This document shows, in pieces, positions 734 to 32,436 of a stretch of DNA of 39,223 bases. The notes below the pieces were generated by a model. The model was not told where the DNA came from, did not search any database, and worked only from the letters and a program-made list of their open reading frames with translations. Source of the DNA: Microbacteriaceae bacterium (GTDB taxonomy: Bacteria; Actinomycetota; Actinomycetes; Actinomycetales; Microbacteriaceae); the NCBI GenBank assembly GCA_030841285.1, contig JAVECW010000123.1, positions 1 through 39,223 of the forward strand, given 5' to 3'. Each line of letters starts with the position of its first letter. Positions within the stretch are counted from its first letter, which is position 1. The position numbers and the translations under genes are program-made.

Positions 734-1990
734 CTACACGGTCTCGAGCGAGTAGCCTTCCTCGCCGTGGACGACCGTGTCGACTCCAGCGACTTCATCT
801 TCGTTCTTGATCCGGAAGCCGATCGTCTTCTGGATCGCCATGCCGAGGAGCCAGGCGATCACGAAGGAGTAGATCATCACTCCGAATGCGGCGATCGCCT
901 GCACACCGAGCTGACGGAACGAGCCGGTGTCGATGAGGCCGATGCCGGTACCGAAGATACCGATGTAGAGAGTTCCGATGAGACCACCGACGAGGTGGAT
1001 CCCGACAACGTCGAGCGAGTCATCGAAGCCGAGCTTGAACTTGAGGTCGATCGCGAGAGCGCACACAGCACCCGCGAGGAGACCAAGGACAATCGCCCAA
1101 CCCGGTGTCAGGATGTTACAGGCCGGGGTGATCGCGACGAGGCCGGCAACGGCGCCCGATGCAGCACCGATCGATGTCGGTTTGCCATCCTTGATCTTCT
1201 CAACGATCAGCCAGCCGAGCGTTGCGGCAGCCGGGGCCGCCAGCGTGTTGATCCAGGCGAGAGCGGCGATGCCGTCGACGGCGGCCTCTGAACCCGAGTT
1301 GAACCCGAACCAACCGAACCACAGCAAGGCGGCGCCGAGCAGCGTCAGCGGAACGTTGTGCGGCTTGCCCATGCCTTTCTGGAAGCCGACGCGCTTTCCG
1401 AGCACGAGTGCGAGGGCGAGACCGGCAGCACCCGCGTTGATGTGAACCGCGGTGCCACCAGCGAAGTCGTTGACCTTGAGGAGCGAAGGCGCCCAGCCAT
1501 CGGTGAGGTTGAAGACCCAGTACGCGACCGGGAAGTAAACGATCGTCACCCAGAGACCGGCGAAGATCATCCATGAACCGAACTTCGCGCGGTCAGCAAT
1601 CGCGCCGGAGATCAGCGCAACGGTGATGATCGCGAAGGTCGCCTGGAAGCCAGCGAACGCGAGGCCGCCGAGGTTGGGGCCGCCCGAGCCCGTTGCGAGT
1701 GCCGTCAACCCGAGCTGCGAGAACGGGTTACCCAACCAGTGCGGGATGAGCGGCGTTCCAAAAGCGAGGCCATAGCCGTAGAGCACCCAAAGCACGCCGA
1801 CCAGGGCCATCGCACCGAAGCTCATCATCATCATGCTGATGACGCTCTTGGCCCGAACCATGCCGCCGTAGAAGAACGCGACGCCTGGGGTCATCAATAG
1901 GACGAGCGCCGCCGCGACGAGAAGCCACAGCGAATCAACGCTGCCCTTCGCGTCATAGGTCGCTGCTGCCGCTGCTGTGTGTAGCAACAT
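734..1990 (-). CDS. amt: Ammonium transporter (Amt family)
   Basis: The 418-residue polytopic membrane protein conducts NH4+/NH3 across the cytoplasmic membrane. It shows about eleven hydrophobic segments after a short N-terminal stretch. The pore twin histidines fall at His183 (in GGTAVHINAG, with the preceding conserved Asp in NDFAGG) and His332 (in DVVGIHLVGG). The early motif TPGVAFFYGGMVR is a strong family signature. The ATG at 1990 has GAGAGG about 12 nt upstream, a little far but the best candidate. The gene stands alone: no glnK or glnD follows, unlike the usual amt-glnK-glnD order in actinobacteria, so PII control, if any, must come from elsewhere. Upstream GlnR-like boxes suggest induction under nitrogen limitation. 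Confidence 0.96.
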   Translation of the reverse strand: MLLHTAAAAATYDAKGSVDSLWLLVAAALVLLMTPGVAFFYGGMVRAKSVISMMMMSFGAMALVGVLWVLYGYGLAFGTPLIPHWLGNPFSQLGLTALATGSGGPNLGGLAFAGFQATFAIITVALISGAIADRAKFGSWMIFAGLWVTIVYFPVAYWVFNLTDGWAPSLLKVNDFAGGTAVHINAGAAGLALALVLGKRVGFQKGMGKPHNVPLTLLGAALLWFGWFGFNSGSEAAVDGIAALAWINTLAAPAAATLGWLIVEKIKDGKPTSIGAASGAVAGLVAITPACNILTPGWAIVLGLLAGAVCALAIDLKFKLGFDDSLDVVGIHLVGGLIGTLYIGIFGTGIGLIDTGSFRQLGVQAIAAFGVMIYSFVIAWLLGMAIQKTIGFRIKNEDEVAGVDTVVHGEEGYSLETV

Positions 1991-2112
1991 TCGAATGGTC
2001 TACCTCTCTGTGTGTACACAAGGTGTCCGCAAGCTGTCGCATCGGATTGCGACCTCCGTGCTGCGGGCACCGCAAGTCTCTTATTGAGAGGTTTCAGTGG
2101 ATGCGTCAGCGT

Positions 2113-2128
2113 GTTTCGAGCATGTTAC
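2113..2128 (-). promoter_or_regulatory. Candidate GlnR box upstream of amt (proximal)
   Basis: Read on the amt strand the site is GTAAC-ATGCTC-GAAAC. It matches exactly the actinobacterial GlnR a-site/b-site pattern gTnAC-n6-GaAAc. It lies about 123 bp upstream of the amt start. amt genes are classic GlnR targets, which supports the call. No binding evidence is available here. Confidence 0.6.
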
Positions 2129-2143
2129 GGCTGGGGGCCAACT

Positions 2144-2159
2144 GTAAACATCCTGTTAC
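2144..2159 (-). promoter_or_regulatory. Candidate GlnR box upstream of amt (distal, degenerate)
   Basis: On the amt strand it reads GTAAC-AGGATG-TTTAC. The a-half is perfect and the b-half matches only partly (TTTAC for GAAAC). It starts 31 bp from the proximal box, about three helical turns, which would place both boxes on one face of the DNA. The wider gap 1991-2208 holds no gene. Confidence 0.45.
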
Positions 2160-2208
2160 CGAATGCGCCCAAAACACCGCGAACAGGCGCATGACCCATG
2201 ACGCCGTC

Positions 2209-3267
2209 CTAGAGCTCGCCGTCGTGCGGGGGCAGCTCACCCGTCGTCAACGCGATCATGCGCGATGTGGCCCGCAGGTACTTCTTGCGATAGCCGCCTC
2301 CCAGCATGTCGTCGTCGAAGACCGCGTTGAGCGGTGTGCCCGTCTCAAGGATGGGGATCTCGGCGTCGTAGACGCGGTCGATGAACGCGACGAGCCTCAG
2401 CGCCTCCATCTGGTCGTCGAGCACGTGCACGTCTCTCAGCCCGATCACCTGCACTCCGGCGATGAGCTTGATGTATTTTGACGGGTGCACGGTCGCCAGG
2501 TGGCTCATGAGGTCGTCGAAGCTGTCACTCGTGACGCTCGTCCCCCTTTCGCTCAACGCAGCGATCGTTCGCTCGTATTCATCTGGCTCGAGCGTCACCG
2601 CGCGCCCCTCGGTGTCACGGCGACGGTAGTCGAGCCCGTCGATCCTGATCGTCTCGAAGTGCGCCGAGAGCGCCTGGATCTCGCGCAGGAAGTCGCTGGC
2701 GGCGAAGCGGCCCTCACCCAGCGAGTTCGGTGGAGTGTTGGATGTCGCGGCAATACGTGTCCCCGTCGCGACGAGTTCGGAGAGCATCCGGGTCATCATC
2801 ATCGTGTCACCGGGATCGTCGAGCTCGAACTCGTCGATGCAGATGAGTTCGGACCCACGCAGCAGTTTGACGGCACCCGCATAGCCCAGGGCGCCGACGA
2901 GTGCCGTGTACTCGATAAACGTGCCGAAATACTTGCGACCGGGCGCCGCGTACCAGAGCGCGGCCAGGAGATGGGTCTTGCCGACGCCGAATCCGCCATC
3001 CAGGTAGACGCCGGGCAGCGGCTCGACGCGCTTCCTGGCCCAGCCGAACAGCCCACCGGGACGCGAAGGCTCCCACGCGGAGGCGAACCGCTTGAGACTC
3101 TCGACCGCACCCGCCTGCGACGGGTAGCCGTGGTCCGGACGGTATGAATCGAACGAGGCGTGCTCGAACTGCGGCGGTGGCACCAGGTCAGCCGCGATCT
3201 CCGCACCCGTGATGCTCGGCGTCCGGTCGGAGAGACGCAGCACGGCCCCGGTTTGTTCGATGGTCAT
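2209..3267 (-). CDS. zapE: AFG1/ZapE-family cell division ATPase
   Basis: This 352-residue AFG1-like AAA+ ATPase is related to ZapE, which in E. coli associates with the Z-ring, and to mitochondrial Afg1. It has a Walker A GGFGVGKTHLLAALW (Lys97), a Walker B LICIDEFELDD (Asp145, Glu146) and a sensor-1-like IAATSNTPP. The ATG at 3267 is preferred because AAAGGTG lies 8 nt upstream. A longer reading in the same frame, up to 3600, would run through the divergent sulfurtransferase promoter and gene start and has no family-like sequence. The gene is divergent from the sulfurtransferase at 3416 across a roughly 150-bp gap. The family call is secure; a role at the actinobacterial septum is inferred from homologues. 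Confidence 0.9.
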   Translation of the reverse strand: MTIEQTGAVLRLSDRTPSITGAEIAADLVPPPQFEHASFDSYRPDHGYPSQAGAVESLKRFASAWEPSRPGGLFGWARKRVEPLPGVYLDGGFGVGKTHLLAALWYAAPGRKYFGTFIEYTALVGALGYAGAVKLLRGSELICIDEFELDDPGDTMMMTRMLSELVATGTRIAATSNTPPNSLGEGRFAASDFLREIQALSAHFETIRIDGLDYRRRDTEGRAVTLEPDEYERTIAALSERGTSVTSDSFDDLMSHLATVHPSKYIKLIAGVQVIGLRDVHVLDDQMEALRLVAFIDRVYDAEIPILETGTPLNAVFDDDMLGGGYRKKYLRATSRMIALTTGELPPHDGEL

Positions 3268-30605: not shown

Positions 30606-30646
30606 CTGGCGACGAGTCAATACCCCACGCGAGAGGGATGCGATCG

Positions 30647-31369
30647 GTGGCTACGGGTGTGCGCAGGCGGGCCTCCATCGATCTCGACGCGATTATCGCG
30701 AATGCACGGATAAGCACATCTGACCTGTCGGAGAGCATGGCGGACCTTCGCGCGGATGCCTACGGCCACGGCTTTGCTCCCGTTCTGAGCGCACTCGGCG
30801 AGGCGGGCGTTCGCACATTTCTCGCCTCAAACCACGAGGATGCTGCGCTCGTGCGGTCGATCGACCCGCACATGCGTGTACACGTCGGCGGGAGCGAATC
30901 GGCTGCCAGGCCGTTGCCGTCGCAGGTCATCGGCCTTGGCCTCTACGGACTCGGCGTCGCGCCGGGCCTGCGCCCCACTCTTCGGCTCAGTGGCGAGGTC
31001 ATCGCCGTCAAGACCATTCCCGGTGGCAGCGGGGTCTCGTACGGCTACACCTACCGCACCTCCGCCCCGACCCGGCTCGCACTGGTCGCACTCGGCTTCG
31101 CCGACGGTGTCCCGCGCGTCGCATCGAACCGCGCACCCGTCCTCGTGAACGGTTTCCGAGCGCTCGTCGCCGGGAGGATCGCGATGGACCAGTTCGTCGT
31201 CGACCTGGGCGATCATCCGGCGAGTGTCGGCGATGAGGCCATTCTGCTGGGAGACGCCTCGCGGGATGAGCCGACGGTCGAGGACTGGGCCGAGGCCGCA
31301 CGCGTTCGACCGGAAGTCATCCTCTCCGGGCTGGGAAAGCGGATCGAACGAGCGTACTCACGCGCATGA
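30647..31369 (+). CDS. Truncated alanine-racemase-like protein (C-terminal domain, PLP lysine absent)
   Basis: The 240-residue protein is about two-thirds of normal alanine racemase length. The N-terminus still resembles the first barrel strands, but the PLP-lysine motif reads ADLRADAYGHG, with Arg35 for Lys. Most of the barrel is missing: the segments for Arg136, His166 and Ser204 (Geobacillus numbering) are deleted, and the Arg219 segment reads VIGLGLYGLG. The C-terminal domain is complete: SGVSYGYTYRTSAPTRLA with Tyr132, GFADGVPR, and GRIAMDQFVVDL with Met180-Asp181. GTG at 30647 is chosen because GAGAGG is 10 nt upstream; ATG at 30638 is too close to it. It overlaps the next gene by ATGA. 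It cannot bind PLP normally; a partner role is likely. Confidence 0.85.
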   Translation: MATGVRRRASIDLDAIIANARISTSDLSESMADLRADAYGHGFAPVLSALGEAGVRTFLASNHEDAALVRSIDPHMRVHVGGSESAARPLPSQVIGLGLYGLGVAPGLRPTLRLSGEVIAVKTIPGGSGVSYGYTYRTSAPTRLALVALGFADGVPRVASNRAPVLVNGFRALVAGRIAMDQFVVDLGDHPASVGDEAILLGDASRDEPTVEDWAEAARVRPEVILSGLGKRIERAYSRA

Positions 31370-32436
31370 GCCGTCCGACGCCGAACCCGCACGCCGAGGC
31401 CGTGATCAACCTGGTCGCTCTCGAGCACAACGTTCGAAGCATCGCCCAGCTCGTCGCGCCCGCCCAACTGATGTTCGCGGTCAAGGCCAATGCGTACGCG
31501 CACGGGCTCCTCCCCGTTGCCACGGCCGGGCTTGCGGCCGGAGCCTCCTCCCTTGCCGTGCTCGAGATCCCGGCCGGCCTGGCCTTGCGCACCGCGGGCG
31601 TGACGGCCCCGCTGCTCGCATGGCTACACGGAACCGAGACGGACTTTCGTGCGGGCATCGAGGCCGACATCGAACTCGGCATCTCTGCCGTCTGGCAGCT
31701 CGAGGCGATCGCGGCATCCGAAGCGAACCGTCCGGCCGTCGTCCACCTCAAGGTCGACTCCGGTCTCAGCCGCAACGGCGCGACGATCGAGGACTGGCCC
31801 GAACTTGTGCGGACCGCCCTTGCGGCGGAGCGCGCAGGGGTCCTCAGGATTCGCGCCGCGTGGTCGCATCTCGCCGACGCATCCGTCGCAGATGACGAAG
31901 CAGCACTCGCGGCATTCCTGAATGCCGTCGCCGTCGCGGAAGCACTCGGAGCTCGCTTCGAACTCCTGCACCTGGCCGCGAGCTCGGCCGGGATCAGGAT
32001 GCCGGAGGCGCGCTTCGGACTCGTACGCATCGGCATCGCGGCCTACGGCATCTCGCCATTCGACGACCGGACGGGTGCCGAGCTCGGCCTGGTCCCGGTC
32101 ATGTCGCTGCGCGCACCCGTCATCGAGACGAGCGTGGGCGGTTCGAGGCTCGCGCGGGTCGCGGCCGGCTTCGCGGACGGGGTCCCGACCATCGGGCTCG
32201 AGCAAGCCTCGATCCTCGTCAATGGCGTGCGCTGCCCGATCGCATCCGTCGAGGTCGACTCGCTGCTCGTCGACACGGACGGTGCGCGAGTGGAGGTCGG
32301 CGACGTCGCAATCATCTTCGGCGCGGGCGACGAGGGCGAACCCACCGCGGAAGAGTGGGCGGAATGGGCGGAGACGATCGGAGATGAGATCGTCACGAGC
32401 GTCGCTCCCCGCGTTCCGCGGGTGTACCTCCGCTAG
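31366..32436 (+). CDS. Alanine-racemase-like PLP protein lacking the catalytic Tyr loop
   Basis: The 356-residue protein has an alanine racemase PLP barrel with Lys40 in FAVKANAYAHG, Tyr44, Arg136 in LKVDSGLSRNG, His168 in WSHLADA, Ser207 in AASSAGI and Arg221 in LVRIGIAAYG. Tyr354 ends the protein in PRVPRVYLR. The C-terminal domain is degenerate: the loop with the catalytic Tyr (normally in SYGRTY) is missing, so the sequence runs ETSVGGSRLARVAAGFADG. The usual SMDQ reads VEVDS, with Met lost. It could bind PLP but by itself lacks the second base of racemisation. It is translationally coupled to the preceding gene, which keeps exactly the missing residues. A diamino-acid or alanine racemase as a heterodimer is inferred. 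Confidence 0.88.
   Translation: MSRPTPNPHAEAVINLVALEHNVRSIAQLVAPAQLMFAVKANAYAHGLLPVATAGLAAGASSLAVLEIPAGLALRTAGVTAPLLAWLHGTETDFRAGIEADIELGISAVWQLEAIAASEANRPAVVHLKVDSGLSRNGATIEDWPELVRTALAAERAGVLRIRAAWSHLADASVADDEAALAAFLNAVAVAEALGARFELLHLAASSAGIRMPEARFGLVRIGIAAYGISPFDDRTGAELGLVPVMSLRAPVIETSVGGSRLARVAAGFADGVPTIGLEQASILVNGVRCPIASVEVDSLLVDTDGARVEVGDVAIIFGAGDEGEPTAEEWAEWAETIGDEIVTSVAPRVPRVYLR

Follow-up and report, generated by a model that had tools for sequence, protein, structure and literature searches.

D-cycloserine has as its target a classic enzyme of the cell wall, alanine racemase (Alr). Alr differs in fold type and reaction from serine palmitoyltransferase, another PLP enzyme that the locus described here resembles. 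The alanine racemases treated in the available part of PMC3245724 are homodimers with a composite active site, to which each chain contributes both halves. Eukaryotic serine palmitoyltransferase (LCB1/LCB2) is built of homologous PLP subunits, one with the lysine and the other adding residues, for which a single site is proposed (PMC3794620, available part), while the S-adenosylmethionine decarboxylase of Trypanosoma is an active paralogue that depends on a dead paralogue, the prozyme (PMC5201418, available part). In a literature search that was incomplete for subscription papers, we found no description of an alanine racemase that is heterodimeric, split or fused.

We compared these systems with two adjacent genes, A and B, on a contig (JAVECW010000123.1) of a Microbacteriaceae bacterium, where the window is the whole stretch of 39,223 nucleotides that was analyzed. 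An earlier note, made from the letters of the window, had read the two genes as complementary halves and a possible obligate heterodimer with one site; the comparison strongly supports this reading, in which the complex itself is a prediction. A and B have the two-domain fold and the catalytic residues of Alr (TIGR00492, e.g., 1vfh); however, whereas each chain of the Alr homodimer supplies both halves of the site, A and B have one half each, so that a single site can be completed. Judged by residue states, neither A nor B carries both active-site halves on its own chain, as every chain of a homodimer would. The pair resembles LCB1/LCB2 in consisting of two homologous subunits with the PLP lysine in only one of them, an analogy of mechanism and not of family, and differs in that both subunits have lost complementary halves, A most of a domain. 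The dead partner in Trypanosoma is described as relieving autoinhibition (PMC5201418), whereas the predicted role of A is to contribute catalytic residues itself.

Anatomy of the gene pair

The features of the pair are collected in Table 1. Sequence, Pfam and alignment agree with the earlier description of A as a protein with Tyr132 and Met180-Asp181 and without the PLP lysine (Arg35 in its place) and most of the barrel. Its match to Ala_racemase_N (PF01168) covers only positions 1–71 of 220, and that to Ala_racemase_C (PF00842) positions 2–127 of 127 (4e-36). Aligned with the Alr of Streptomyces lavendulae (1vfh), A reads LRADAYGHG at the lysine site and keeps GVSYGYTY and IAMDQF. An in-frame ATG at 30638 is a possible alternative start of the gene. 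For B, the sequence contains the residues listed in the earlier note (Lys40, Tyr44, Arg136, His168, Arg221 and the C-terminal Tyr, Tyr354), together with Lys129, and the absence of the Tyr loop and of the Met of the MDQ motif was also found as described, the place of Met312 being taken by Val297. Against 1vfh, B keeps the lysine motif, lacks the Tyr loop and has VEVDSL at the Met312 place; Ala_racemase_N is matched over 1–220 (3e-49) and Ala_racemase_C only over 32–127 of 127. The barrel domain PF01168 with the PLP lysine is thus found in B alone, and PF00842 with Tyr265 and Met312 in A alone. On the TIGR00492 equivalog, whose cut-off of 168 bits applies to a single protein, B scores above (193.8) and A below (135.4).

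Table 1. Positions of the A–B pair and of its active-site residues in the window
Feature	Position	Strand	Basis or detail
Gene A, half alanine racemase, putative C-terminal-domain donor, truncated barrel	30647..31369	+	240 aa, GTG start
Gene B, half alanine racemase, putative barrel donor, degenerate C-terminal domain	31366..32436	+	356 aa
ATGA overlap, A stop/B start	31366..31369	+	sequence
Arg35 of A, codon CGC, in place of the PLP lysine (Lys39)	30749..30751	+	sequence, alignment
Tyr132 of A, codon TAC, equivalent to catalytic Tyr265'	31040..31042	+	sequence, Tyr in 60/60 A rows
Met180-Asp181 of A, equivalent to Met312'-Asp313'	31184..31189	+	sequence, A rows
Lys40 of B, codon AAG, equivalent to the PLP lysine (Lys39)	31483..31485	+	62/62 B rows
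Arg136 of B, codon CGC	31771..31773	+	62/62 B rows
His168 of B, codon CAT, equivalent to His166	31867..31869	+	62/62 B rows
Arg221 of B, codon CGC, equivalent to Arg219	32026..32028	+	62/62 B rows
Missing Tyr265 loop of B, approximate place	32125..32150	+	gap vs 1vfh; Tyr in 0/62 B rows
Val297 of B, codon GTC, at the place of Met312	32254..32256	+	Met in 1/62 B rows

AlphaFold was run on single chains of A and B only. The model of A has a pLDDT of 94.7 and a pTM of 0.90, with the barrel remnant, about 95 residues long, confidently modeled (pLDDT 94.7); its best Foldseek match is 1vfh (TMq 0.85, rmsd 5.9). The model of B (pLDDT 94.7, pTM 0.91) superimposes on 1vfh with a Z of 46.0 and an rmsd of 1.5 over 352 residues. 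On one side of the pair in the window lies a gyrB/parE-type gene and on the other are GatD-, MurT- and sigma-factor-type genes, all on the minus strand; the NCBIfam matches of the GatD- and MurT-type genes are below the curated cut-offs. The ATGA overlap pointed out in the earlier note was found in the window, and a start of B that overlaps the stop of A by 4 nt is available in 69 of 82 pairs from related genomes, suggesting translational coupling. The 82 pairs are the 83 overlap rows minus that of G010, whose alr (L303, 407–1867) changes between two frames between barrel and C-terminal domain; it was rejected as a pair and is probably a frameshift in a genome that is 86% complete.

Because the active site of Alr is composite, the barrel of B and the C-terminal domain of A would rebuild exactly one site, with the barrel coming from B and the C-terminal part from A. 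The other site, composed of the barrel remnant of A and the C-terminal domain of B, would be dead and decayed. From this anatomy and the comparisons below, we consider it highly likely that A and B together form a PLP-dependent amino-acid racemase of the alanine racemase family, an obligate heterodimer in which each dimer has a single working site; the physical pairing, geometry and catalysis of A–B we infer.

Conservation of the reciprocal losses in relatives

To follow the pair among relatives, we took the regions around the best B matches among 299 genomes of the family and assigned their Alr-like frames to types in an alignment; more divergent members came from A-type and B-type profiles run against this sample and from Pfam searches in chosen genomes. 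The best-scoring places were fetched from this sample, so that weaker or unpaired members may exist elsewhere. A member of the pair was read in 91 genomes (61, 21 and 9 in successive sets) belonging to 30 genus codes by our own tally, and its partner was adjacent in all 91, in G001, G314 and G013 as a contig-edge fragment. The earlier note had proposed to test whether the reciprocal losses are fixed together, and they were found so in every genome read. In the first set, Lys39 is missing in 60/60 A rows (Arg 45, Ser 6, Ala 4, Gly 3, Pro 1, Thr 1), while Tyr265 and Met312 are kept in all 60; the Asp313 place is Asp in 52 and Asn in 8. Conversely, Lys39, Tyr43, Lys129, Arg136, His166 and Arg219 are all kept in 62/62 B rows of that set, in which Tyr265 occurs in none and Met312 in one (G163). 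At the position of the C-terminal Tyr354, a residue of the chain that also provides the barrel, 38 of the 62 have Tyr and 12 have Phe. The later loci repeat the reciprocal pattern, with B truncated by the contig end in G235, G271 and G171. The B of G016 (L309, 1904–3073), from a 0.9-Mb genome, reads VIKANANGHG, with Asn at the otherwise kept Tyr43. Where the region is available, most loci have a parE-type gene on one side of A–B, and the opposite side is usually occupied by GatD, MurT and sigA. An assembly artefact was rejected, as the same arrangement appears in many assemblies, single-contig ones among them.

The same rows could also be read with B alone as the enzyme, a homodimer whose altered chemistry has no need of Tyr265. 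A would then act as a chaperone or regulator, comparable to antizyme inhibitor or prozyme. In favor of this, the set of barrel residues is complete in B, the Alr tyrosine is not needed by other fold-type III PLP enzymes, and a conserved motif surrounds the lost lysine in A. However, A keeps Tyr265 and Met312 in 60/60 rows while B has lost Tyr265 in 62/62, which a regulator would not require, and fused or swapped-role forms are the only PF00842 proteins found in 19 genomes in which a racemase is expected (see below); we regard this reading as improbable. Some residues of the supposedly dead site do persist (Asp313 in 53/62 B rows, Tyr43 in 48/60 A rows and Arg at the lysine place in 45/60 A rows), a sign of some other role for the remnant of A and a point against the heterodimer reading. 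The ADAYGHG motif that follows the lost lysine is mostly kept in A rows, despite the predicted dead site.

A without most of a domain and B without a functional loop might instead be a decaying pair, two pseudogenes that lost different parts by chance. This is what the earlier note had judged unlikely, and the comparative data bring it close to negligible: the reciprocal pattern recurs in 30 genus codes, the neighborhood and the overlap are conserved, and dN is below half of dS in 39/39 within-genus comparisons for A and equally for B, which shows purifying selection. In our own calculation, dN/dS was 0.08–0.46 for A and 0.10–0.31 for B, some dS values being above 1.

In the four compared genomes with A, B and canonical Alr, the canonical protein is better conserved in the C-terminal domain than in the barrel, whereas in B this order is reversed; between G055 and the window's genome (G000), for instance, the identities of barrel and C-terminal domain are 0.64 and 0.74 for canonical Alr and 0.79 and 0.57 for B. 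The C-terminal domain of A is better conserved than that of B in 1343 of 1711 genome pairs. However, the argument from rates is weak, because the intact ALR2 proteins (the downstream genes of tandem pairs described below) also lean to the barrel (0.74, versus 0.70 for the C-terminal domain) and because identity in the C-terminal domain is lower for A (about 0.60–0.65) than for the canonical Alr of these genomes (0.69–0.78).

A wider scan of contigs returned mostly ordinary Alr, with at least nine A–B pairs among at least 80 loci and no fusion among the matches listed. With an A-type profile on 248 genomes of the order at a cut-off of 1e-50, at which weaker matches could be missed, matches spanning the N-terminal remnant of A occurred only in the same family. 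One genome (G283; L098, 4658–12512) has two different A–B pairs, separated by a few kb, whose A genes differ in length.

Fusions, a second complementary pair and their origins

Evidence beyond that of the earlier note comes from natural A–B fusions, from a second pair with swapped roles and from genomes in which the search yielded nothing but such pairs or fusions. A and B form one open frame in three genomes, G301 and G341 of one genus and G292 of another. Since other members of both genera have separate A and B genes, at least two fusion events probably took place. The fusions lend indirect support to a predicted physical complex with one active site, like the one proposed for LCB1/LCB2.

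Five genomes of g77 have a further complementary pair in addition to A–B; it lies at the ordinary alr locus, with the order of the halves reversed. Its upstream gene (B') keeps the barrel residues and has lost Tyr265 and Met312, and its shorter downstream gene (A') has lost Lys39 and kept Tyr265 and MDQ. The same B'–A' order is fused in one frame of more than 600 aa in g21 (6/6 genomes read) and in g73 (G292, G073, G246, G332 and G194). Across the aligned rows, the six barrel residues are kept and Tyr265 and Met312 are gone in 16/16 B', while Lys39 is gone and Tyr265, Met312 and Asp313 are kept in 16/16 A'. A further form occurs in g50 (read in G050 and G178), in which one barrel and a degenerate C-terminal domain are followed by another C-terminal domain, which has Tyr and MDQ, and by TsaE, with no second barrel; these parts may be one polypeptide. 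The chain runs in frame into TsaE (L310 of G178, 934–3195; L311 of G050, 64–2430, in which PF02367 was found).

Intact tandem pairs, alr1–alr2, were found at 15 loci in the first set and at 6 more in a later set, and look like the starting state from which the complementary forms may have come. On the barrel tree, B groups with ALR2, the downstream gene of these pairs (starred support of 100), the B' of g77 groups with 8 of 12 ALR1 rows (94), and the B' of g21 and G292 stands apart (starred, 99). On the C-terminal-domain tree, A' of g77 groups with ALR2 (starred, 99) and A does not. A single clade of B and B' barrels is rejected (p-AU 5e-62). A single B clade is compatible with the data (p-AU 0.253), although on the barrel tree ALR2, with its loop kept, falls inside B with unstarred support; B may accordingly have lost the loop once or more than once. 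Neither the swapped-role barrel donors as one clade (p-AU 0.521) nor A and A' as one clade (p-AU 0.139) are rejected; the count of at least two origins therefore rests on the barrel donors. These trees indicate that the complementary split arose at least twice, with the parental roles swapped at least in g77; A may derive from an ALR1-like gene. We also considered that ALR2 had regained its Tyr loop from the neighboring ALR1 and rejected this, as the C-terminal-domain tree does not place ALR2 with ALR1.

The forms can be arranged in a putative series that would lead from an intact tandem alr1–alr2 to split halves in overlapping genes, then to a fused chain and finally to one barrel with two C-terminal domains. 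It appears likely that, within this one family, alr gave rise on two or more occasions to an obligate pair with one site and with opposite roles, that the ordinary enzyme was apparently replaced in several lineages and that the window pair may have a new substrate. If true, the repeated change from homodimer to one-site heterodimer within one family would make the evolution of obligate heteromers testable via natural intermediates. Eight tandem pairs (L159, L161 and L163, from Curtobacterium, and L252, L253, L255, L256 and L261) have Lys39 and Tyr265 in both copies. In these same eight, Lys129 is lost in both copies and Asn replaces Asp313 in one copy, changes that are possible early steps of role-sharing.

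Racemase supply and candidate substrates

In 19 genomes (six g21, five g50, five g77, G194, G292 and G016), listed as 97–100% complete, we found no PF00842 outside the complementary proteins. The latter were read in 16 of the 19, and the one-frame state of G232, G281 and G323 follows from match positions; G073, G246 and G332 were left out, each having a third PF00842 gene. The PF00842 search was positive in 8 of 14 named control genomes. It was negative in Corynebacterium glutamicum, for whose alanine racemase there is a solved structure (2dy3), so this search can overlook an Alr. We also ran the barrel search, PF01168, which was positive in C. glutamicum, on the same 19 genomes and on that of the window. 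The 17 further PF01168 matches that were identified, which do not include every weak match, are all YggS, LysA or aldolase/dehydratase-like and without PF00842. A D-Ala-D-Ala ligase match was present in 19/19 genomes at 165–235 bits; since that search was positive in all 14 controls, archaea included, only strong scores were used. Since only complementary pairs or fusions were found in the 19 genomes, such pairs are very probably active racemases with one live site, although a transaminase might in principle supply D-alanine instead. Naming each half "alanine racemase" miscounts the enzymes in these genomes.

Canonical Alr subunits, which are homologous to both halves, raise the question of whether A and B enter mixed dimers with them, instead of or besides pairing with each other. 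The window's genome does contain a canonical Alr; however, none was found in the A–B-bearing G016, G292 and the five g77 genomes, three genomes have A fused to B, and the two genes usually overlap. Mixed dimers thus seem very unlikely.

In G016, a single-contig genome of 0.9 Mb, an unfused A–B pair of the window type comprises the only PF00842 and PF01168 genes found. Because the pair adjoins GatD/MurT-type genes and is the sole Alr-type set found in this small genome, the substrate is probably alanine or another cell-wall amino acid. Besides the pair, a single PF00842 protein was found in the window's genome, an intact Alr encoded on a different contig, and the window pair therefore need not be the genome's source of D-alanine. 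Because of this intact Alr, it is possible that the pair acts there on a different substrate, e.g., a diamino acid of B-type peptidoglycan. Such peptidoglycan is known in the family, e.g., in Rhodoluna lacicola (PMC4156110, available part), and the available parts of PMC4156110 and PMC8225329 name no racemase for it. Should the extra pair have a different amino acid as its substrate, this could be part of the explanation of how the D-amino acids of the unusual cell walls of these bacteria are made. The window's genome also encodes a barrel protein with a D-serine-dehydratase-type C-terminal domain (PF14031; G000:C37:3023-3697, L352), which is not an Alr.
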